From Terriglobia bacterium (lineage in GTDB: Bacteria; Acidobacteriota; Terriglobia; UBA7540), in NCBI GenBank assembly GCA_035712365.1, contig DASTAW010000029.1, positions 1 to 64,000 on the forward strand: 64,000 bases of DNA, in the 5' to 3' direction. The notes beneath the pieces were generated by a model, which saw only the letters and a program-made list of their open reading frames with translations, did no database searches and was not told where the DNA came from. A program made the translations under genes and the position numbers. Below, one piece after another: positions 44,732 through 55,144 of this stretch (its first letter is position 1; each line of letters starts with the position of its first letter).

Positions 44732-45637
44732 ATGAATGCAGTAAGCCTTGAGAAGGTTACGAAGCGCTACGATTCCTTCGATGCGGTCAGCAGCCTGACG
44801 ATGGAAATCAGGGAAGGGGCCGTCTTCGGTCTGCTGGGGCCGAACGGGGCCGGCAAAACCACCACGCTGCGCATGATTGTCCGCATCCTGATTCCCGACC
44901 AGGGATCCGTCCAGGTCCTGGGCGAGCCGCTCAGCGAACGGACGCAGGACCTGATCGGGTATCTGCCGGAAGAGCGGGGGCTCTATCGGCAGATGCGGCT
45001 GCTTGAAATCCTGCGCTTCCTGGGAGCGCTGAAGGGCCTTTCGGAAGCGGAATCGGAACGCCGCGCGCGCGTCTGGCTCGAGCGGTTGGGGCTGGCGGAC
45101 CGGCTGAACGTCGAGGTCCACAGCCTGTCACGCGGCATGCAGCAGAAAGTCCAGTTTATTGCCGCCATCATTCACCGGCCGCGGCTGGTGATCCTGGATG
45201 AGCCCTTCACGGGGCTCGATCCGGTCAACGCCGCCCTCATCAAGGACGTTATGCTGGAACTCCGCAATCAGGGCGCAACCATCATCCTCTCGACACACCG
45301 CATGGACCAGGTGGAGCAGATGTGCGATTCCATCTGCCTGATGAACAAAGGACAGAAGCTTCTGGACGGAGACCTGAAGGCCATCAAGAAGTCTTATGGC
45401 AACAACACGGTCAGGATGGAATTTGCAGGCGACCAGACTTTTCTTCAGCTTCCCGGCGTTATTGAAAGAATCAACTCGTATGGCGAGATGGTTGACATCA
45501 CTCTGCGCCCCGGGGCGGACGCGCAGCGGATCCTGAAGAGCGCCGTGGAGCGCGGCGTTCAGGTCCGCCGTTTTGAACTGATTGAGCCTCCCTTGAACGA
45601 CATTTTCATCGAGAAAGTATCGGAGCGCAATGCGTAA
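44732..45637 (+). CDS. ABC-2 type exporter, ATP-binding subunit (NatA-like)
   Basis: ATPase of 301 residues: Walker A GPNGAGKTT (36-44), signature LSRGMQQKVQF, Walker B LVILDEP followed by FTGLDPVN. The C-terminal ~80 residues form the extra domain usual in NatA-like exporters. It works with the overlapping permease downstream (8 bases), probably exporting a small ion, drug or lipid. Substrate unknown. Confidence 0.88.
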   Translation: MNAVSLEKVTKRYDSFDAVSSLTMEIREGAVFGLLGPNGAGKTTTLRMIVRILIPDQGSVQVLGEPLSERTQDLIGYLPEERGLYRQMRLLEILRFLGALKGLSEAESERRARVWLERLGLADRLNVEVHSLSRGMQQKVQFIAAIIHRPRLVILDEPFTGLDPVNAALIKDVMLELRNQGATIILSTHRMDQVEQMCDSICLMNKGQKLLDGDLKAIKKSYGNNTVRMEFAGDQTFLQLPGVIERINSYGEMVDITLRPGADAQRILKSAVERGVQVRRFELIEPPLNDIFIEKVSERNA

Positions 45638-46901
45638 GATCTGGCTGATCTTCAAACGTGAATACGTCACCCGGGTGCGGACCAAGGCCTTCATTCTGGG
45701 GACCCTCGCTCTGCCGCTGCTCTCGATGGCCGTCCTGGTGATTTCCATTTTTCTCTCGGGAGGAACTTCCCGAAATTCCACCAGAATTGCCATCATCGAC
45801 GAAGTGGGCGGCGTCGGCGGCGCGGTCGAAAACGCGCTGACCGAGGGCAAATCAACCACCCACCCCAAGCCTGACGTGGTCCAGGTTGTGGAACATCCTG
45901 CGCCGGAGACGGAGGCGTATCTCAATTCCCAGGTCATGCAGAATGAAATTGACGGGATTCTGGTGCTGCCGAAAGGCCTGTTGAAAGGGACTGCCGCAGC
46001 GCAGTTCCATGCCAGAGGCATGCACGCGGCGGCTTTGATGGGACCCATCGAGCGGGCCGTGAACGCGGCCATCATTGCGCGGCGGCTGAGCGCCGAGGGG
46101 AAGAGCGCCAGCGCCATGAAGAACGTCTTCAAAGTGGTGCAGGTCCAGCTCGTGAACGCTTCGTCCGAAAAAGCGGAGGACCCCAGCGAAACCAATTTCG
46201 CCATCGCCATTGTCGCCGGCATGGTCCTTTACATGACGCTGATTGTTTACGGGATGTCAACCATGCACTCGGTGATGGAAGAAAAGACCACACGCATGGT
46301 GGAAATCCTGGTTTCATCCGTCAAGCCCTTCGACCTGTTGACGGGAAAGATTGTGAGCGTTGGGGCCGTGGCGCTCACTCAATACCTGATTTGGGCGGTG
46401 ACCGTGGGCGCGCTGTTTGCCTCCGCGGCAAGCGTCACGGCGCTGGTGCGTCCGGGCGCTGCCACGCCCGGCATCAATCTGTCCCCCATGCTGCTGGTTT
46501 ATCTGGTGGTTTTTTTTCTGGCGGGATATTTCCTCTACTCGGCGCTTTATGCGGCGGCCGGCGCCATCGTTTCGAACGACGAAGAGGCGCGCCAGGCGCA
46601 GATGCCGCTCACGCTGTTGATCCTCTGCAGCTTCATGCTCTTCAATGTAATCCTGAACAATCCCAATTCCACCACTTCCGTCATCCTGTCGATGACGCCT
46701 TTCCTTTCGCCCATTCTGATGACGCTTCGCGTGGCCATGCAGACGCCGCCGCTTTGGCAGATCGTTCTGGCGCTGGCCTTTTCAATCGCAACCACCTTCT
46801 ACACGATTCGTATCTCGGCCAGGATTTACCGTGTCGGCATCCTGATGTATGGGAAGCGGCCCTCGCTTAAGGAATTGCGGCGCTGGCTGCGGTATTCGTG
46901 A
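45630..46901 (+). CDS. ABC-2 type exporter, permease subunit (NatB-like)
   Basis: A 423-residue permease. One N-terminal helix (FILGTLALPLLSMAVLVISIF) is followed by a large extracytoplasmic region (~45-185). About five C-terminal helices follow, with the motif MHSVMEEKTTRMVEILVSSVKPFDLLTGKI, typical of the NatB/YhaP group. It overlaps its ATPase gene and runs convergently into the iron operon with a 16-base gap. Confidence 0.87.
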   Translation: MRKIWLIFKREYVTRVRTKAFILGTLALPLLSMAVLVISIFLSGGTSRNSTRIAIIDEVGGVGGAVENALTEGKSTTHPKPDVVQVVEHPAPETEAYLNSQVMQNEIDGILVLPKGLLKGTAAAQFHARGMHAAALMGPIERAVNAAIIARRLSAEGKSASAMKNVFKVVQVQLVNASSEKAEDPSETNFAIAIVAGMVLYMTLIVYGMSTMHSVMEEKTTRMVEILVSSVKPFDLLTGKIVSVGAVALTQYLIWAVTVGALFASAASVTALVRPGAATPGINLSPMLLVYLVVFFLAGYFLYSALYAAAGAIVSNDEEARQAQMPLTLLILCSFMLFNVILNNPNSTTSVILSMTPFLSPILMTLRVAMQTPPLWQIVLALAFSIATTFYTIRISARIYRVGILMYGKRPSLKELRRWLRYS

Positions 46902-46917: not shown

Positions 46918-47994
46918 CTACCGCCTGGGGCAGCAGACTCCCGGCGGGATCGGAGATCCGTGCGGGCAAGTCTCGGGATGTTTGAGGAGCACGCAGAGTT
47001 TTTCGGTGACTTCGGCGCTCAGGCTATGCTCAATCTTGCCGGCATTCTCATCCAGCAGATCTTTGTGGATCTGGAACATCTCATAGAACAGCCGCTCGGA
47101 GAGCCGGTGGCGGCGGATCACGTGGTTGGCTTGCCGCTGGCCCTTCGGGGTGAATGACAGCCGGTCGTCCTGGTCAAGCCGCACCAGCCCTTCCTGGGCC
47201 ATCAACAGGAAGGTCGCACGGTTCTGGGGAAACTCCGGCAGTTCAGAGCAAGGGAAAATCTCCTTGCCCGTATCCTCCTCGTAGTGCCAGACGGCCTTGA
47301 GAAGATTTTCGATCAGTTCCTGCTCGTAGACCGGGAAGACGGAGACCTCCGAAAGCCTTCCATGGTGGAGCTCGATGCGTCGCTCCGCCATGCGGCCGAT
47401 TTCAGGGTCGTGCGTCACCATCACGATGGTGTGGCCCTCGCGATGCAATTCGGTGAACAGGCCCATCACCAGGGTTTCATTGACTTCATCGAGGTTCCCG
47501 GTGGGCTCGTCGGCAAGAATCAGGTTGGGCTGGTTGATGAGCGCCCGCGCCACGCAGACCCGCTGCTGCTCGCCGCCCGAGAGTTGCGAGGGAAGATGAT
47601 GGATACGGTCACCCAGACCCACCTGCACCAGCGCCTGGCGCGCTTCCGGTTCGTCCGCGAGACTGTGGAAATACTGCGCCAGCATCACGTTTTCAACCGC
47701 CGTGAGGTAAGGCACCAGATGGAACTGCTGGAACACGAAGCCGATTTTTTCGGCGCGAAAACGCGCCAGCTCGGTGGAAGAAAGCCGGCCGATTTCCTCG
47801 CCGCCAATCCGGACCGCGCCTTCGCTCGGCGCATCGAGCCCGCCAAGGATGTTCAGCAGCGTACTCTTTCCCGACCCGGACGGGCCCATCACAGCAATCC
47901 ATTCTCCCTTGTCCACGGAGAAGGAAACCTCGCGCAGGGCGGCGATGGATGCGCCGTATCGCCGGGTCAGATTTTCAACTTCAATGAAGGCCAA
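46918..47994 (-). CDS. ABC transporter ATPase fused to a DtxR-like metal-sensor module
   Basis: A 358-residue fusion. Residues 1-222 are a LolD/MacB-type ATPase: Walker A GPSGSGKST (37-45), signature LSGGEQQR (138-145), Walker B LILADEP (158-164), His195. Residues ~224-292 resemble the DtxR winged helix (ENLLKAVWHYEED, EGLVRLDQDDRLSFTPKGQ). Residues ~293-358 resemble its dimerisation/metal domain (RRHRLSERL, AGKIEHSLSAEV, KHPETCPHGSPIPPGVCC). Against DtxR, His79, Glu83, Glu105 and His106 are kept as His296, Glu300, Glu322 and His323. His98 is Asp315 and Cys102 is Gly319. Extra cysteines lie at 343, 354 and 355. It is last in the iron operon, 4 bases after the FtsX gene. Confidence 0.85.
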   Translation of the reverse strand: MAFIEVENLTRRYGASIAALREVSFSVDKGEWIAVMGPSGSGKSTLLNILGGLDAPSEGAVRIGGEEIGRLSSTELARFRAEKIGFVFQQFHLVPYLTAVENVMLAQYFHSLADEPEARQALVQVGLGDRIHHLPSQLSGGEQQRVCVARALINQPNLILADEPTGNLDEVNETLVMGLFTELHREGHTIVMVTHDPEIGRMAERRIELHHGRLSEVSVFPVYEQELIENLLKAVWHYEEDTGKEIFPCSELPEFPQNRATFLLMAQEGLVRLDQDDRLSFTPKGQRQANHVIRRHRLSERLFYEMFQIHKDLLDENAGKIEHSLSAEVTEKLCVLLKHPETCPHGSPIPPGVCCPRR

Positions 47995-47998
47995 CGGA

Positions 47999-49216
47999 TT
48001 ACTCTCCCTTAAGCGCGGTGGCCGGCTGAATGCCGCGCATGATGCCCACGGGGAAGAAGGTGGCCAGCGCCGCCAGCAGAATGGTGGCTCCCCAGACCAG
48101 CGGCAACGTCCACCACACCACGCCCAGGCTCACGCCGAAAAGCCGCTGGCCTACCTGGGCGGCCAGCAAACCGCCCGCCGCAAATCCTGCCAGGCCAGCC
48201 ACTAGCCCCAGGCTTGCGCCCTCCACCAGAAACAACCGGGTGACTTTCTGGTTGGTGGCCCCCAACGCTTTCATCACCGCGATGTCTTTTCTTCGCTCCA
48301 GCACGATGGCCGTCATGGTGGCCATCACGCAGAGAGCGATGATCGCCAGAATCAGACCCATCAGAGAAATCAAGAGTCCACGGATGGTGTGCAGGACCTT
48401 CCCTTGAGAATACACAATCTGGCGGACAGGCCGCACGTCAAGCTGGGGGAAAGCTGCCGCCATCTGATGAACGCCCCGCTCGATGTCGACCGTCTGGCCG
48501 GGGATGTTCATCTGAATCATGCTGATTTTGCTCTCGAGGCCAGCCAGCTTCTGCAGTTCTGGCAGAGAAACGAAAACCTGGTCGTCTTCCGACGCGCCAG
48601 TGGAAATCACGGCTGCCACTTGAAAAGTTTCGGATGCCGCCGAGCCATCGCCGGCTGTGAGTTTCAGCGAGTCTCCCGGCTTCAGCCGGAAGCGCTCGGC
48701 AAGGTGCGCCCCCACGGCGCATGAGCCCGGACCGAGGGGACCCTCATCTGCTCCGGCGGCGATTCGCCAGCCCGGCACCAGGGCCTTCAAGGCGGCGAAA
48801 TCAGATCCCACGCCGACAACGTTTTCGAAGTCCGGCAGCCGGGGCTCCGTCGGCACGCGTGAAACGCGCGCCACCAGGTAGAGCACCGGCGCGGCGACAA
48901 GACCTTTCACCCCGGATTGCAGGGATTCCACCCGCTGGAAGACTGCTCCGTCGATCAAGGCCCCCAGGGCTGCCTGGCCGCTCGAGGCCGCTGCCTTGCT
49001 GCTGAGAATGACGTTGGCGCCGTAAGAACGAAACTCCTGGGTCATCTTGCGGTGAACGTCGCCGTAAAGGTTGAGAAGCATCGATGCCAGCGAGGCCCCA
49101 ACCAGCAGGGAAATCACAGCCAGCGCGGCTTGCGGCCGCCTTACCACCAGAGAGCGGACCCACAGCCGCCAGAAAAGCGAACGGCGCTTTCCGGGTTGTT
49201 CAGCTCTTTCACTCAT
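47999..49216 (-). CDS. FtsX/MacB-like ABC permease (iron operon, second)
   Basis: A 405-residue permease with one N-terminal helix, a large periplasmic domain (~60-270) and three C-terminal helices with the FtsX signature (VLERRKDIAVMKALGATNQKVTRLFL, shown here as a family landmark). It overlaps the preceding permease gene by 8 bases and is followed by the ATPase-DtxR gene. It likely forms a heterodimer with its neighbour. In Campylobacter p19 and E. coli Fet loci, similar permease pairs accompany an FTR1 protein. Confidence 0.87.
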   Translation of the reverse strand: MSERAEQPGKRRSLFWRLWVRSLVVRRPQAALAVISLLVGASLASMLLNLYGDVHRKMTQEFRSYGANVILSSKAAASSGQAALGALIDGAVFQRVESLQSGVKGLVAAPVLYLVARVSRVPTEPRLPDFENVVGVGSDFAALKALVPGWRIAAGADEGPLGPGSCAVGAHLAERFRLKPGDSLKLTAGDGSAASETFQVAAVISTGASEDDQVFVSLPELQKLAGLESKISMIQMNIPGQTVDIERGVHQMAAAFPQLDVRPVRQIVYSQGKVLHTIRGLLISLMGLILAIIALCVMATMTAIVLERRKDIAVMKALGATNQKVTRLFLVEGASLGLVAGLAGFAAGGLLAAQVGQRLFGVSLGVVWWTLPLVWGATILLAALATFFPVGIMRGIQPATALKGE

Positions 49217-50483
49217 TTCTCAACACCGCGACGGGTGAGACTTTCAGTCCCCGGGCCAGCGGGACAGCGCTTCCTGCCAATGTCACCAGCAAGGCCAGCG
49301 TCAGGACCGTGGGCAGAATCACCCATTCGATTCCGGTCGGAACGCCGAAAACGGCAAGCGACAACCGGCTTGCCATCCAGCTCCCCAGCCCGTATCCCAC
49401 AATGCCGCCCGCAAGGCCGACTCCAAAAGCTTCCAGCAGAAAGATTGACGCCACCCGGCGGTTGGTGGCTCCCAGGGACTTGAAGAGGCCGATTTCCGCC
49501 CGGCGCTCCAGAATGATGGCAAACATCAGCGAAGCCATCGCCAGGGCGGCCGTCACCAGCGCTGCCACGGCAAGAAGCGTCATCAGGAGGCTGATGTTTT
49601 TGATAATCGAGCCCTCCGTTGCGGCCACGCGATAGACGGGCCTGGCCTCTGAGCCGGGGACCGCCTGCTGAATCTGCCAGGCGATTGAACTCACGTAGGG
49701 CGTGCAATACCAGCGCTCATAGTCGGCGGCGTTCAGCCGGGTGACGTCGGAGCGGCCGAATTCATCCTCGGGCTTGGTCAAGGCGCTCACTTCCACGCGG
49801 CGCACCTTTCCCGGCAGGCCGGTGAATTCCTGCACCGCGGCAAGCGGCGCCAGAACTTCATCGTCTTCCTCTCCTCCGGTCCCGAGAATGCCACTCACCG
49901 CGAGGGCCATCGTGGAGTCCGGGCGGCCCTTGCTCTGGAAAATCAAATTGGCTCCCGGCTTGATTCCCAGTTCCCCCGCGAGGGTAATGCCCACCAGGCA
50001 CTGCTGCGATCCGTCTTGCGGCCAGTTTCCCTCGACGTTCCATCCAGGATGAAGCTTTTCCAAGCCCGTGCGGAAAACGTCTCCACGCTGCACCTCGAGG
50101 GCGTGGTTGAACCAGCTTCCGATTACGACGACCGGGCGCCCCTCGACCGTGGCGGGCGCGTAGAGGAATGGGGCAAACCCCATGATGTTATTGCGCCAGA
50201 ATATCTTTCTCAGTTCGGGCAGGCTGGATTCGGGCAGAAATGCGCCGGCGCCGGCAGGCCGGTAGTCCACTCCGCCCACGGCGATCGACAGGCTATCCGC
50301 GGCTGGGGTCACAGAAATGTTGGCCCCGAACGAGCGAAGCTCGTGCGCCACGCGGTCCCCTACGCTCAGAGAAAGCGTTCCTGCCGCCGTGGTAACCCCA
50401 ATCCCCAGAGCCACGGCTGCGACGCCCAGCAGTTTGCGCTTTCGCCGGCGTATGAGCGATCTGCCGACAATTCTGCTTAACAT
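49209..50483 (-). CDS. FtsX/MacB-like ABC permease (iron operon, first)
   Basis: A 424-residue permease of the same build as the next gene: N-terminal helix (LLGVAAVALGIGVTTAAGTL), a periplasmic domain, then three helices with ILERRAEIGLFKSLGATNRR. The two permeases are clearly related but not near-identical, suggesting an old duplication and a heterodimer. It starts 6 bases after the FTR1 gene and overlaps the second permease. Confidence 0.87.
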   Translation of the reverse strand: MLSRIVGRSLIRRRKRKLLGVAAVALGIGVTTAAGTLSLSVGDRVAHELRSFGANISVTPAADSLSIAVGGVDYRPAGAGAFLPESSLPELRKIFWRNNIMGFAPFLYAPATVEGRPVVVIGSWFNHALEVQRGDVFRTGLEKLHPGWNVEGNWPQDGSQQCLVGITLAGELGIKPGANLIFQSKGRPDSTMALAVSGILGTGGEEDDEVLAPLAAVQEFTGLPGKVRRVEVSALTKPEDEFGRSDVTRLNAADYERWYCTPYVSSIAWQIQQAVPGSEARPVYRVAATEGSIIKNISLLMTLLAVAALVTAALAMASLMFAIILERRAEIGLFKSLGATNRRVASIFLLEAFGVGLAGGIVGYGLGSWMASRLSLAVFGVPTGIEWVILPTVLTLALLVTLAGSAVPLARGLKVSPVAVLRNE

Positions 50484-50489
50484 AAAGCC

Positions 50490-51755
50490 TTAGTGGAAAT
50501 AGCGGGCCGAACTTTCAAGACTGGCCTTTGAAATCTCCAGCATGTTGCCGTGCACCAGATAGTCAATATGGACGGGATTGCAGCCGCCAGCCGACCCGAT
50601 GGTCGGGGCGTAAATGGCGGACGCGCAGTTCCGGCAAATCACGTTCTGGCCCTGCTGGTAGTATCCCTGGTCGCCGCAAATCTGGCAGGCATCAAGCCCC
50701 ACCCGGACCGTATCTGACGAGTCCAGGATGGCGATGAATCGCACCTGCTTGCCCCCGGCTTCCACCTGATAGGTGTGCAGCTTGTGGTCTTTCAACCCAT
50801 CAACAGGCACCTGAGCAATGTTGCCGATAAACGCCAATTCGACAGGCGGCCGGACCACCTGGGCAACCCGGGAATAAACATAGTCAGCGCTGATCAGGAT
50901 GATGATGATCAGCCCCACGGCGCTCGCCGCCGTCTTCCAGAAGCGTTCACGCCGCTGGCTGGCAACCATCTTCCGGCGCTCCGGCGCGGCCATGCGCGAA
51001 AGCGCATCGGCTGACACTGACCCGGTCCGGATTCTCTCGGCCAGGACCAGAAACAGGCACAGCGCAATGATGGCCACAAAGAAGAAAGTGTCACTGTTGG
51101 CGATCGGCCCGATAACGGCCATTTCGCGGCGGCTGGAAGGAAGAATCTGGGCCTCGGAAAGCTCGTGCAAACCGGAAACCAGCAATTGAAACGCAACCAC
51201 CAGGAGCACCAGGCTGGTGACGCTGAAAAACCTGCGAAGGTTAACCTTGATGCTTCCCTTGAAGAAGGCCACGCCCAGTCCTATGGCCAACGCCAGGCCC
51301 AGCACGGCCCCCATCAGGTTCATCAGCTCGGTGGTGCGCAATGAAACGGCGCCCAGGAAGATCGCTGTTTCGGCGCCTTCGCGGGCCACCATCAGGAGCA
51401 CCAGCGCGAAGATTCCCCAGGCTCCCGAGCGCGACGGTTTGATGGAGAGGTCTGAAATCCTGCTCTCAATTTCCTTCTTCAGCCCTTTCGACGCCCGCAT
51501 CATCCAGATCACCACGGAGGCCACAAACACGGCGCCCAGCAACATCATCCAGCCTTCGTAGGCGTCTTCGCTGATGGCCCACTTCTGGAGAAAAAAAGCA
51601 GCGGCGGCGCTGACGGCAACCGCCGCGCCCACTCCCCACCAGACAAACGGGACCCATTCATCCCGGCCGGCCTTCTTCAGATAGCCGAGGATGATGCCGA
51701 CGATCAGCGCGGCTTCAACGCCTTCACGCAGCGTGATGACTAAGGAATCGAACAT
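50490..51755 (-). CDS. FTR1-family iron permease with C-terminal DUF2318 domain
   Basis: High-affinity iron permease of 421 residues. Two REGxE iron-passage motifs occur at residues 10-14 (REGVE) and 125-129 (REGAE) among about seven helices. Residues ~330-421 are a DUF2318-like domain with Cys357, Cys360, Cys374, Cys377 and Cys392 (CQICGDQGY, VICRNC, TIGSAGGCNP), probably metal- or Fe-S-binding. This matches FetM and Campylobacter Cj1658. The start is the Met of MFDSLVITLREGVE; a 24-codon upstream extension overlaps fur. It starts 19 bases after the fur stop. No P19/FetP-like gene is adjacent. Confidence 0.92.
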   Translation of the reverse strand: MFDSLVITLREGVEAALIVGIILGYLKKAGRDEWVPFVWWGVGAAVAVSAAAAFFLQKWAISEDAYEGWMMLLGAVFVASVVIWMMRASKGLKKEIESRISDLSIKPSRSGAWGIFALVLLMVAREGAETAIFLGAVSLRTTELMNLMGAVLGLALAIGLGVAFFKGSIKVNLRRFFSVTSLVLLVVAFQLLVSGLHELSEAQILPSSRREMAVIGPIANSDTFFFVAIIALCLFLVLAERIRTGSVSADALSRMAAPERRKMVASQRRERFWKTAASAVGLIIIILISADYVYSRVAQVVRPPVELAFIGNIAQVPVDGLKDHKLHTYQVEAGGKQVRFIAILDSSDTVRVGLDACQICGDQGYYQQGQNVICRNCASAIYAPTIGSAGGCNPVHIDYLVHGNMLEISKASLESSARYFH

Positions 51756-51774: not shown

Positions 51775-52308
51775 TTACCGGTCGTCCGCGCAACCGCGGC
51801 CCGCCTTCTTTTGCTCGACGGCGCCAACGGAAACGGGCGGAGTGCCTGTTTCTTTGGCCTTGGCCGCGCACTTCGCGCAAAGGCCGCCCAGTTCCAGCCG
51901 CGCCACGCGGAGGGTAAACCCGTGGCGTCCTGCGATCTGGTTCTTCAGCCTTTCAAACAGCTCATCCTGAATTTCGAACACCGCATGACACCGCTGACAC
52001 GTGAAGTGCATGTGGTCCTTGTTGGTGCGGGCCTCGTAGTAATGCCCGTGCCCGTTCACGTGCATCAGGTCAAGCTCATCAATGATGCCAAGTTTCTTGA
52101 GCGATTCCAGGGCGCGATAGACGGTGGCCAGATGCAGGCCGGGCATTTGCTGCCGGGCCCTGCGCAGCACTTCAGGCGCGTCGAGGTGCTCTCCGGCTTG
52201 CTGAAGCACATCCGCGATCACGCGGCGCTGGCGGGTCAGACGGAGACCATGCTCGCGAAGCTGGGTGGTGACGGAGCGGCGTTGCTCGAGGTGTTTGGCG
52301 AGGACCAT
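51775..52308 (-). CDS. Fur-family metalloregulator
   Basis: A 177-residue metal-dependent repressor. The winged helix occupies ~15-85 (GLRLTRQRRVIADVL, LATVYRALESLKKLGII). The sensor part has His87/His89, His99/His101 and two CxxC pairs, Cys104/Cys107 and Cys144/Cys147, which fit a structural zinc site. As first gene of the iron operon it likely represses itself and the downstream uptake genes when iron is plentiful. PerR or Zur specificity cannot be excluded; the FTR1 neighbour favours iron. Confidence 0.9.
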   Translation of the reverse strand: MVLAKHLEQRRSVTTQLREHGLRLTRQRRVIADVLQQAGEHLDAPEVLRRARQQMPGLHLATVYRALESLKKLGIIDELDLMHVNGHGHYYEARTNKDHMHFTCQRCHAVFEIQDELFERLKNQIAGRHGFTLRVARLELGGLCAKCAAKAKETGTPPVSVGAVEQKKAGRGCADDR

Positions 52309-52330: not shown

Positions 52331-52378
52331 ACAGAAATTATCCCAAAATCTATACTTTTATGTCAAGAATTATCTCAC
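52331..52378 (-). promoter_or_regulatory. Iron-operon promoter with GATAAT-type repeats
   Basis: Read on the minus strand, TTGACA (52361-52366) and GATAAT (52337-52342) are 18 bases apart, a good sigma-70 promoter, about 30 bases before the fur start. GATAATT occurs both before the -35 and at the -10. Fur boxes are arrays of GATAAT-like hexamers, so autoregulation is plausible. Confidence 0.6.
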
Positions 52379-53432: not shown

Positions 53433-54830
53433 CTACGAAATGCGCTCAAAAGCGTGAATGATCGCCGCGTCCTGGTCGTCAAAAACCGTCCGCAGATCGA
53501 GCAGCAGGCGGTCCCTCTCGACGCGGGCGATGACGGGCGGACGGTTGCGCCGAAGCGCTGCTTCCATTTCCTGCGCGCCAAGCCTGCCGTGACACACCGC
53601 AACCAGTTTCGTGGGCAGCGACTGCCCAGGCGTCGAGCCTCCGCCGGCCACCGATTCGCCGTCTTCAATCCCGGCGGAAATGGAGGGAATATCCACCAGC
53701 CTGGCCACGAGCGAAGCGGCGCGCGCGGCCAGTTCCTCGAGCGGCCGTCTCATCATGCGCAGCGCCGGAATGGCATCAAGGTTTCCGTCAAGGTAAAGCC
53801 TGATGGTTGCTTCGAGCGCAGCGATGGTCAGCTTGTCAACTCGCAGGGCGCGAAACAGAGGGTTCTGGCGGATGCGGTGCAGAAACTCCCGTCGGCCTGT
53901 GATCAGGCCCGCCTGCGGCCCTCCCAGCAGCTTATCTCCGCTGAACGTCACCACGTCCACACCCGCCCTGAGGCTTGCCGCTACCAGGGGCTCATCCCGG
54001 ATGCCCAGGGGCCTGAGATCGAAAAGGCATCCGCTGCCGAGGTCCTCGATCAGGGGAAGATGATGCTGATGGGCCAATTCGACCAGTTCCGCCAGTTCCG
54101 GCCTTTCGGTAAACCCAACAACCCGAAAGTTGCTGGGATGGACGCGCATCAGCGCCCGGGTGTGTTCATTGATCGCCCCGGCATAGTCTGCCAGCCGCGT
54201 CCGGTTGGTGGCGCCCACTTCTTTGAGCCTTGCGCCGCTCTTGGCGCAAATATCCGGGATGCGGAAAGAACCGCCGATTTCAATCAGCTCCCCGCGCGAA
54301 ACGATGACTTCTCCGCCTTCGGCCAACGCGTTCAGCGTGAGGAAGACGGCGGCGGCATTGTTATTCACCACCAGCGTTCTCTCGGCGCCGGTCAATTCCG
54401 CGAAGAGGCGGTCGGTGTGTGAGTCGCGCTTTCCGCGCCTGCCTTCACCCAGATCGTATTCCAGATTCGAATAGCAGCCGGCAATTTCCTCGATGTGCTC
54501 GACGGCCCTGCGAGCCAGAGGAGCACGCCCCAGATTGGTGTGGAGGACCACGCCTGTGGCGTTGATGACGGGCTGGAGTGAATATGCTGCCAGGTCAGTG
54601 GCGGCGGTGGCGATCTTTTCTTCGAGCTCAGCCGGTGAGAACGCTCCAGCGGTCCCCTTCGCAATCCCTTCACGCATTTCTTGCAGGATGGTCCGGGCGG
54701 CCTCGACAACGACGCGGTGGCCCAGTTCCGCTTCAAGACGCTTCAGGCCGTCTCGGCCCAGCAGTTCGTCCACGGAAGGAATCTGCCGCAGCATTTCCGT
54801 CGCGGCGTTCGCATGGCTTTTGCTTTCCAT
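53433..54830 (-). CDS. selA: L-seryl-tRNA(Sec) selenium transferase SelA
   Basis: Pyridoxal-phosphate enzyme that converts Ser-tRNA(Sec) to Sec-tRNA(Sec) using selenophosphate. The 465-residue protein has the SelA N-terminal tRNA-binding region (QIPSVDELL), PVINATGVVLHTNLGRAPL, NNNAAAVFL, and the cofactor Lys300 in FSGDKLLGGPQAGL. GGGAG precedes the ATG by 8 bases; the upstream frame is rejected. It implies a selenocysteine pathway in the genome, but selB, selC and selD are not in this window. Confidence 0.92.
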   Translation of the reverse strand: MESKSHANAATEMLRQIPSVDELLGRDGLKRLEAELGHRVVVEAARTILQEMREGIAKGTAGAFSPAELEEKIATAATDLAAYSLQPVINATGVVLHTNLGRAPLARRAVEHIEEIAGCYSNLEYDLGEGRRGKRDSHTDRLFAELTGAERTLVVNNNAAAVFLTLNALAEGGEVIVSRGELIEIGGSFRIPDICAKSGARLKEVGATNRTRLADYAGAINEHTRALMRVHPSNFRVVGFTERPELAELVELAHQHHLPLIEDLGSGCLFDLRPLGIRDEPLVAASLRAGVDVVTFSGDKLLGGPQAGLITGRREFLHRIRQNPLFRALRVDKLTIAALEATIRLYLDGNLDAIPALRMMRRPLEELAARAASLVARLVDIPSISAGIEDGESVAGGGSTPGQSLPTKLVAVCHGRLGAQEMEAALRRNRPPVIARVERDRLLLDLRTVFDDQDAAIIHAFERIS

Positions 54831-55144
54831 CGACGTAGCTCCCTTGCCGAGTAGCTGGGCGGTGTGCCGGGTTGCACACCCCACGGCCATTTCAACACAA
54901 CAGCAGAGCAAGGGTCAACTTGCGCAGCGTCTCAGGAGCGGCCCAGTTTGAATTGTGGCACGGGCGTCCTCGCCCGTGTTCCGGTCAAAAAACACAGCCA
55001 GGATGGCTGTGCCACGAAACAGGAACTGAGTCACCACAAGGCTTGCTGGCGTTCGTTTTCGCGGTTTCGGCGCTTTTGTCGTAGTGGTTTTCTGCCGATG
55101 GGAGTTATAATGGCCTATCTGGCGCTCACCTTCGAGGTCCCCCG
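54831..55144. other. Divergent intergenic region between selA and the MXAN_5187-like gene
   Basis: This 314-base gap contains the palindromic element at 54955-55015 and a plus-strand TATAAT at 55106-55111, about 34 bases before the next gene's GTG. No convincing -35 was found. No further gene is seen. Confidence 0.45.
54955..55015. repeat. REPIN-like element of the GTGG subtype
   Basis: A 61-base unit: GTGG, hairpin CACGGGCG-tcct-CGCCCGTG, an A-rich spacer, hairpin CACAGCCA-gga-TGGCTGTG, CCAC. Same architecture as the GTAG elements but with GTGG/CCAC tips. Confidence 0.75.

Follow-up and report, generated by a model that had tools for sequence, protein, structure and literature searches.

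Bacterial iron control is understood mainly as transcriptional control by Fur and DtxR/IdeR. An operon that shares an FTR1 permease, DUF2318/FtrD, two FtsX-like permeases and one ATPase with the locus described here is the fet cluster of Campylobacter jejuni (fetMP-fetABCDEF), whose ATPase is FetD (PMC10783030). Growth under iron limitation depends on FetBCD (PMC10783030). In other transporters, the C-terminal domains of MetN and ModC dimerise around bound substrate and block transporter cycling. FeoB levels, in turn, are set by FeoC, whose winged-helix fold carries an Fe-S cluster sensitive to O2 (PMC10710835).

Here we analyse a gene fusion in a 64,000-nucleotide stretch of DNA from a Terriglobia bacterium (the window), in which an ABC ATPase continues in frame into a module derived from DtxR repressors. 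We propose, with a probability of roughly 55%, that the protein is the FetD-equivalent ATPase of an FTR1/Fet-type iron-uptake system and that its module, probably without DNA binding, senses cytoplasmic iron, as Fe(II) or as Fe-S, to control the ATPase post-translationally. The protein is an ABC subunit with a C-terminal DtxR-fold domain and not a categorically new system; in the literature searched, which covered few subscription journals, the fusion is described nowhere.

An ABC ATPase Fused to a DtxR-Derived Module in an Iron Operon

The fusion gene occupies positions 46918–47994 on the minus strand, stop codon included, and encodes 358 residues in one frame. It begins with TTG at 47994, a few bases past the stop of the upstream FtsX gene and preceded by a purine-rich GGGAGAG. 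Residues 1–218 (47341–47994) form an ATPase with Walker A (GPSGSGKS), signature (LSGGEQQR) and Walker B (LILADE) motifs, and Pfam places ABC_tran at residues 20–165 (E = 1.7e-35). A fold search with the full-length model finds that this part resembles MacB, LolD, YbbA and FtsE. The motifs, the MacB-like fold and the FtsX-type partner permeases together mark it as a MacB/LolD/FtsE-type ABC ATPase.

The remaining residues, 219–358, make up the DtxR-derived module. Its metal-binding and dimerisation domain, Fe_dep_repr_C (PF02742), lies at residues 282–350 (46945–47151) and is recognised by Pfam (E = 7.5e-24; score 84 bits, cut-off 27), phmmer, AF2 and Foldseek. With phmmer, residues 220–358 match PDB chains of IdeR, DtxR, SloR and ScaR (best E = 6e-13). 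The initial annotation, made from the DNA alone, had read the gene as a MacB/LolD-like ATPase joined in one frame to a DtxR-type module. It had staked this reading on a DtxR profile match within residues 224–358, which PF02742 provides, and Pfam, phmmer and the AF2/Foldseek comparison agree with it. A C-terminal domain on the nucleotide-binding subunit is a layout shared with MetN/ModC-type ABC importers.

The gene is the last of an operon with the order fur, FTR1-FtrD/DUF2318, FtsX1, FtsX2, ATPase-DtxR in the Pfam scan, which bears out the earlier placement of the module in an iron operon. The first gene encodes a Fur-family regulator (51775–52308, minus strand; FUR, 7.9e-28) and has upstream of it a consensus match to a sigma-70-like promoter, TTGACA-18-GATAAT (52337–52366, minus strand). 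After a gap of about 19 bp comes a gene that joins an FTR1 iron permease and an FtrD-like (DUF2318) domain in one protein (50490–51755, minus strand, likely ATG at 51755; FTR1, 2.1e-37; FtrD-like, 4.4e-31). The two permeases, one of FtsX type (49209–50483, minus strand; Pfam FtsX) and one of FtsX/MacB type (47999–49216, minus strand; FtsX and MacB_PCD), precede the fusion gene. The FTR1/Fet gene set of FTR1 permease, DUF2318/FtrD, two FtsX-like permeases and ATPase is thus present in one operon. Unlike in the C. jejuni cluster, FTR1 and FtrD are one protein here, fur leads the operon, the ATPase bears a DtxR module, and no thioredoxin gene lies between fur and the ATPase. The genome (98.9% complete) also yields no match to the periplasmic P19/FetP family (PF10634), and none to FeoB_C. 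It encodes one further PF02742 protein, a canonical DtxR-like regulator with an HTH.

Conservation and Loss of the Fusion

The single-frame fusion is found in about 60 loci from many genera and families and several classes of Acidobacteriota. It extends across the class of the window organism (families f1, f2, f5, f6, f7, f10, f12 and f14) and reaches seven other groups of family rank within the phylum. In relatives whose operon can be seen, the gene order is FTR1-FtrD/FtsX/FtsX/ATPase-DtxR. Among the best 80 of at least 563 matches in a collection of named genomes, the fused loci are from Acidobacteriota plus one 3.9-kb contig of a Planctomycetota MAG (L053), which may be a binning error; further fusions with lower scores may exist elsewhere.

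This conservation bears directly on the possibility, raised by the initial annotation against its own reading, that a sequencing error near 47325 had artificially joined two genes. The recurrence of the single-frame fusion in other genomes refutes an artefact, be it a frameshift, a sequencing error or an assembly error. In comparison with two congeners, moreover, the third-codon-position substitution bias and equal lengths of a coding sequence continue unbroken across the domain junction. We regard the chance of an artificial join as practically nil.

The module is not universal. Twenty-three related genomes have a strong ATPase match, of which 20 are full-length or nearly full-length fusions, two are fragments and one (G037) is unfused. 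The short ATPase of G037 was considered as a split gene with a separate downstream module and rejected, as the next ORF is not DtxR-like. Sister lineages carry the same operon with a short, module-less ATPase (L146–L154 and L190–L197), namely genus g38 of f10, several genera of f6 and one f5 genome. In a tree of the ATPases, most unfused proteins are nested among fused ones, which suggests that the module was lost repeatedly while the operon stayed; three deep unfused rows make the root state unsure. When genomes with an unfused ATPase were searched for the module, they gave no match or weak matches at the level of canonical DtxRs, and in two Acidobacteriota a standalone copy follows FeoB. Lineages that retain the operon but lack the module are what one would expect if the module is a regulatory add-on. 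FeoB is present in 7 of the 32 fused genomes tested.

Standalone Relatives beside FeoB

Among the matches listed, the nearest relatives without a fusion measure about 220–230 residues and combine the same module with FeoA (PF04023). They come from Myxococcota/'Deltaproteobacteria', Nitrospirota, Brocadia and other taxa (L043–L114), and for the members scanned NCBIfam names distant DtxR/MntR models only. Like the fusion, these proteins have a degenerate HTH, the invariant C-PHG-CC motif and an iron transporter as neighbour; they differ in being separate proteins with a C-terminal FeoA domain that stand beside FeoB and are unfused to an ABC ATPase. A FeoB-like ORF lies just upstream in 27 of 55 standalone loci, often with fur preceding it (L046–L048, L050, L052, L057, L059, L060, L063, L064, L066, L070, L073, L074, L081, L083, L088, L093, L096, L097, L102, L103, L105–L107, L109 and L110). 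For Geobacter and Desulfuromonas, a 2004 study lists 'feoB1 - R' operons as predicted targets of Fur (PMC545781); R may belong to this family.

In a tree of 132 modules, canonical acidobacterial DtxRs stand apart from the fused and standalone proteins taken together (100/99), and the standalone family encloses a single clade (98/85) of the 61 fused modules from Acidobacteriota; this tree rests on few columns and contains long branches for L053 and L064. The module was probably taken from a FeoB-associated DtxR-FeoA protein, in which it may have a similar role. In a Nitrospirota MAG (L113:1006-2548), the gene for the standalone DtxR-FeoA protein overlaps the FTR1 gene that follows it, which is a third way of tying the module to an iron transporter.

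Predicted Fold and DNA-Binding Half

In the full-length AF2 model, the fold-search matches listed were ABC proteins only; the module was therefore modelled alone, giving a pLDDT of 96 and a pTM of 0.89. All 50 of the PDB neighbours listed by Foldseek for the module are DtxR, IdeR, SloR or DR2539 repressors, with TM (query) of 0.69–0.83, and its predicted fold agrees with DtxR/IdeR at a TM of about 0.8. The structure prediction that had been proposed as a check thus returns a DtxR fold. The full-length model has a pTM of 0.61, with a pLDDT of about 57 around residues 211–220. The NBD ends at about 218 and the first module helix begins at 222, leaving a low-confidence linker of a few residues, across which NBD and module may be stiffly coupled.

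The N-terminal part of the module (residues 222–281; 47152–47331, minus strand) is a degenerate winged helix. AF2 places helices at 222–242, 254–257 and 259–267 and wing strands at 271–273 and 278–281, so that HTH helix 2 is reduced to 254–257. Fe_dep_repress (PF01325), the HTH domain of the DtxR family, is not found in the fusion protein at E ≤ 0.1, and those standalone relatives that were scanned score under its cut-off; the genome's own canonical DtxR-like protein passes it with 35.4 bits. The median net charge of the recognition-helix segment is +1 in fused, −2 in standalone and +3 (range 2–4) in canonical modules. Canonical recognition helices begin with Thr/Ser-Pro, a feature absent from the examples inspected. 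The DtxR-like winged helix of the earlier description therefore holds as a scaffold in the AF2 model but not as a recognisable Fe_dep_repress domain. These features are evidence, not proof, that the module probably no longer binds DNA.

The initial annotation had offered two readings: metal in the cytoplasm controls the pump allosterically, or the transporter doubles as a regulator. In the latter, one bifunctional protein would serve as a transporter ATPase and as a DNA-binding, metal-dependent repressor of its own operon. Descent from DtxR and the retained winged-helix scaffold would fit this role, but PF01325 is unmatched, helix 2 is reduced and the basic recognition helix is lost. The operon, moreover, already carries a Fur gene, and a membrane-docked ATPase would need to reach DNA. 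We consider such a dual function very improbable given the degenerate HTH, and allosteric control fits the evidence better.

An Eroding DtxR Site and Invariant Cysteines

The alignment covers 62 modules from fusions, 55 from standalone proteins and 15 from canonical DtxRs. At the family level, the fused proteins share with DtxR/IdeR repressors the whole-module fold, PF02742 and most primary and ancillary ligand positions. They differ from them in the undetected PF01325, the absence of an SH3/FeoA domain, the fusion to an ATPase, the extra C334 and CC, and, in the window protein, Gly at 319.

Residues H296, E300, D315, G319, E322 and H323 align with H79, E83, H98, C102, E105 and H106 of DtxR. 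Of the DtxR ligands (M10, C102, E105, H106; H79, E83, H98), the window protein thus keeps H296, E300, E322 and H323 and has D at H98, G at C102 and N at about M10. In helix 1 it carries N230 and K233 where most relatives have Glu. E300 is invariant across fused, standalone and canonical modules, and H296, E322 and H323 occur in 55, 59 and 55 of the 62 fused modules, respectively, with E322/H323 lost in some relatives. At the position of C102, Cys is found in 50/62 of the fused modules and 55/55 of the standalone ones, and Glu in the canonical acidobacterial set. Codon 319 is GGC (Gly) in the window species and TGC (Cys) in both congeners, so that Gly319 is confined to this species within its genus. 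The four kept ligands and the D315 and G319 substitutions had been named correctly before; the Gly at 319 is unusual, as 50 of the 62 fused relatives keep the Cys. As judged from the alignment, the family appears to retain an iron-type (Cys) DtxR site in most members, some, including the window protein, being without it, and the classical site may be dead in the window protein.

The earlier emphasis on the classical site misses a second set of residues, C334 ... C343-P-H345-G ... C354-C355 (46930–46995, minus strand). C334, C343, H345, C354 and C355 are each present in 62/62 fused modules. In the standalone modules, C334, C343 and C354 are present in 55/55 and H345 and C355 in 54/55, the exception at C355 being a cut-off row; C334, C354 and C355 occur in 0/15 canonical DtxRs. 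The CPHG...CC tail had been described as an addition to DtxR, and this is so for GxCC only: CPHG-PIP is the ordinary end of the DtxR dimerisation domain, as the PF02742 match reaches residue 350 and CPHG is also found in canonical acidobacterial DtxRs. Since the Cys/His tail set is never lost while the DtxR site erodes, it is the best candidate for the function under constraint.

Two observations concern variation around these sites. In the family of the window organism (f1), the Cys102 equivalent at 319 is variously Gly, Ala, Leu, His or Gln (L036, L115, L020, L024, L040, L041, L120, L025, L026, L039 and L023), with an unchanging Cys tail. In family f10 (L140–L145), an insertion of about 30 residues between the wing strands, exemplified by APHPPQPHGHKHVVNPCHD in L141, is rich in His and Pro with some Cys, and is possibly another metal site.

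The invariance of the cysteine set, alongside erosion of the Fe(II)-type DtxR ligands in the window lineage, could instead mean that the module works as a switch for oxygen/redox or Fe-S status, with no sensing of free Fe(II). A labile cluster on the four invariant cysteines would be lost, with the loss altering activity or exposing the subunit to proteolysis, as for FeoC and FeoB. FeoC offers the precedent of a winged-helix protein whose O2-sensitive Fe-S cluster controls FeoB levels (PMC10710835); it shares the winged-helix fold and cysteines with the module and acts on an iron transporter, not on DNA (PMC10710835, PMC7762939). FeoC is nevertheless a small separate gammaproteobacterial protein acting on FeoB, a functional analogy only. 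Against a redox switch, conservation throughout the family is also strong for E300 and, in most members, for H296, E322 and H323, and the four cysteines might just as well hold Zn or Fe. A redox switch also overlaps with the sensor that we favour. We judge it unlikely, though deserving of real weight.

In a purely structural role, the module would sense nothing but would keep the ATPase pair or the FTR1 complex together, as a domain for dimerisation or stabilisation that might contain a Zn site. This would account for its dispensability in several lineages and for the erosion of the classical site in the window lineage. The fold is also a dimerisation domain by descent. Against this stand the derivation of the module from metal sensors, its retention beside two unrelated iron systems (FeoB and FTR1) and the invariant Cys/His ligand set, and we find a structural role distinctly unlikely.

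A Proposed Iron Sensor on the Uptake ATPase

The fusion is kept beside iron transport, and we propose that the module binds metal, dimerises and affects the ATPase. In the mechanism we propose for iron sensing, two ATPase subunits would sit beneath the FtsX1/FtsX2 pair, and their modules would dimerise under the NBD pair as in DtxR. Cytoplasmic Fe(II) would bind those ligands of DtxR type that remain, and/or C334/C343/C354/C355 with H345 would hold iron, tightly bound or as an Fe-S cluster. Iron binding would set the conformation of the module and limit closure of the NBDs, such that high cytoplasmic iron would lower ATPase activity and iron uptake (trans-inhibition). This would form a fast layer of control above transcriptional control by the Fur of the same operon. 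We favour inhibition by high iron over activation because feedback on uptake is the usual logic. Against the proposal stand the possibly dead classical DtxR site of the window protein, the dispensability of the module, which several lineages have lost, and the low confidence of the modelled NBD-module interface.

The C-terminal domains of MetN and ModC have folds that differ from that of the DtxR module. They share with it a regulatory position at the C-terminus of the nucleotide-binding subunit, and we propose the same logic (PMC10710835); MetN and ModC belong to ABC importers with binding proteins, whereas the permeases here are FtsX/MacB-like.

A broader reading takes in the standalone proteins. 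In it, a DtxR-derived family without repressor function, marked by the degenerate HTH and the invariant C-CPHG-CC, would sense iron or Fe-S for membrane iron transporters at the post-translational level. In several phyla it would partner FeoB as a DtxR-FeoA protein of its own; in Acidobacteriota it would have been fused early to the FTR1/Fet ABC ATPase to regulate uptake directly. We hold this tentatively, at somewhat short of even odds. If true, the DtxR repressor fold has been recruited as a direct sensor on an iron importer ATPase, with sister proteins beside FeoB, and the cell may sense iron at the transporter itself as well as at its genes. The four invariant cysteines and one histidine would then offer handles on the role of the ABC part in FTR1/Fet systems and on a quick shut-off of uptake.

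Flanking Genes

Convergent to the operon, at 44732–46901 on the plus strand, lie genes for a DrrA/NatA-like ABC ATPase and an ABC2_membrane_3 permease, which are unrelated to it. On its other side, a selenocysteine synthase gene, selA, is found at 53433–54911 on the minus strand (PF03841, E = 3.2e-141); given this gene, the organism may use selenocysteine.
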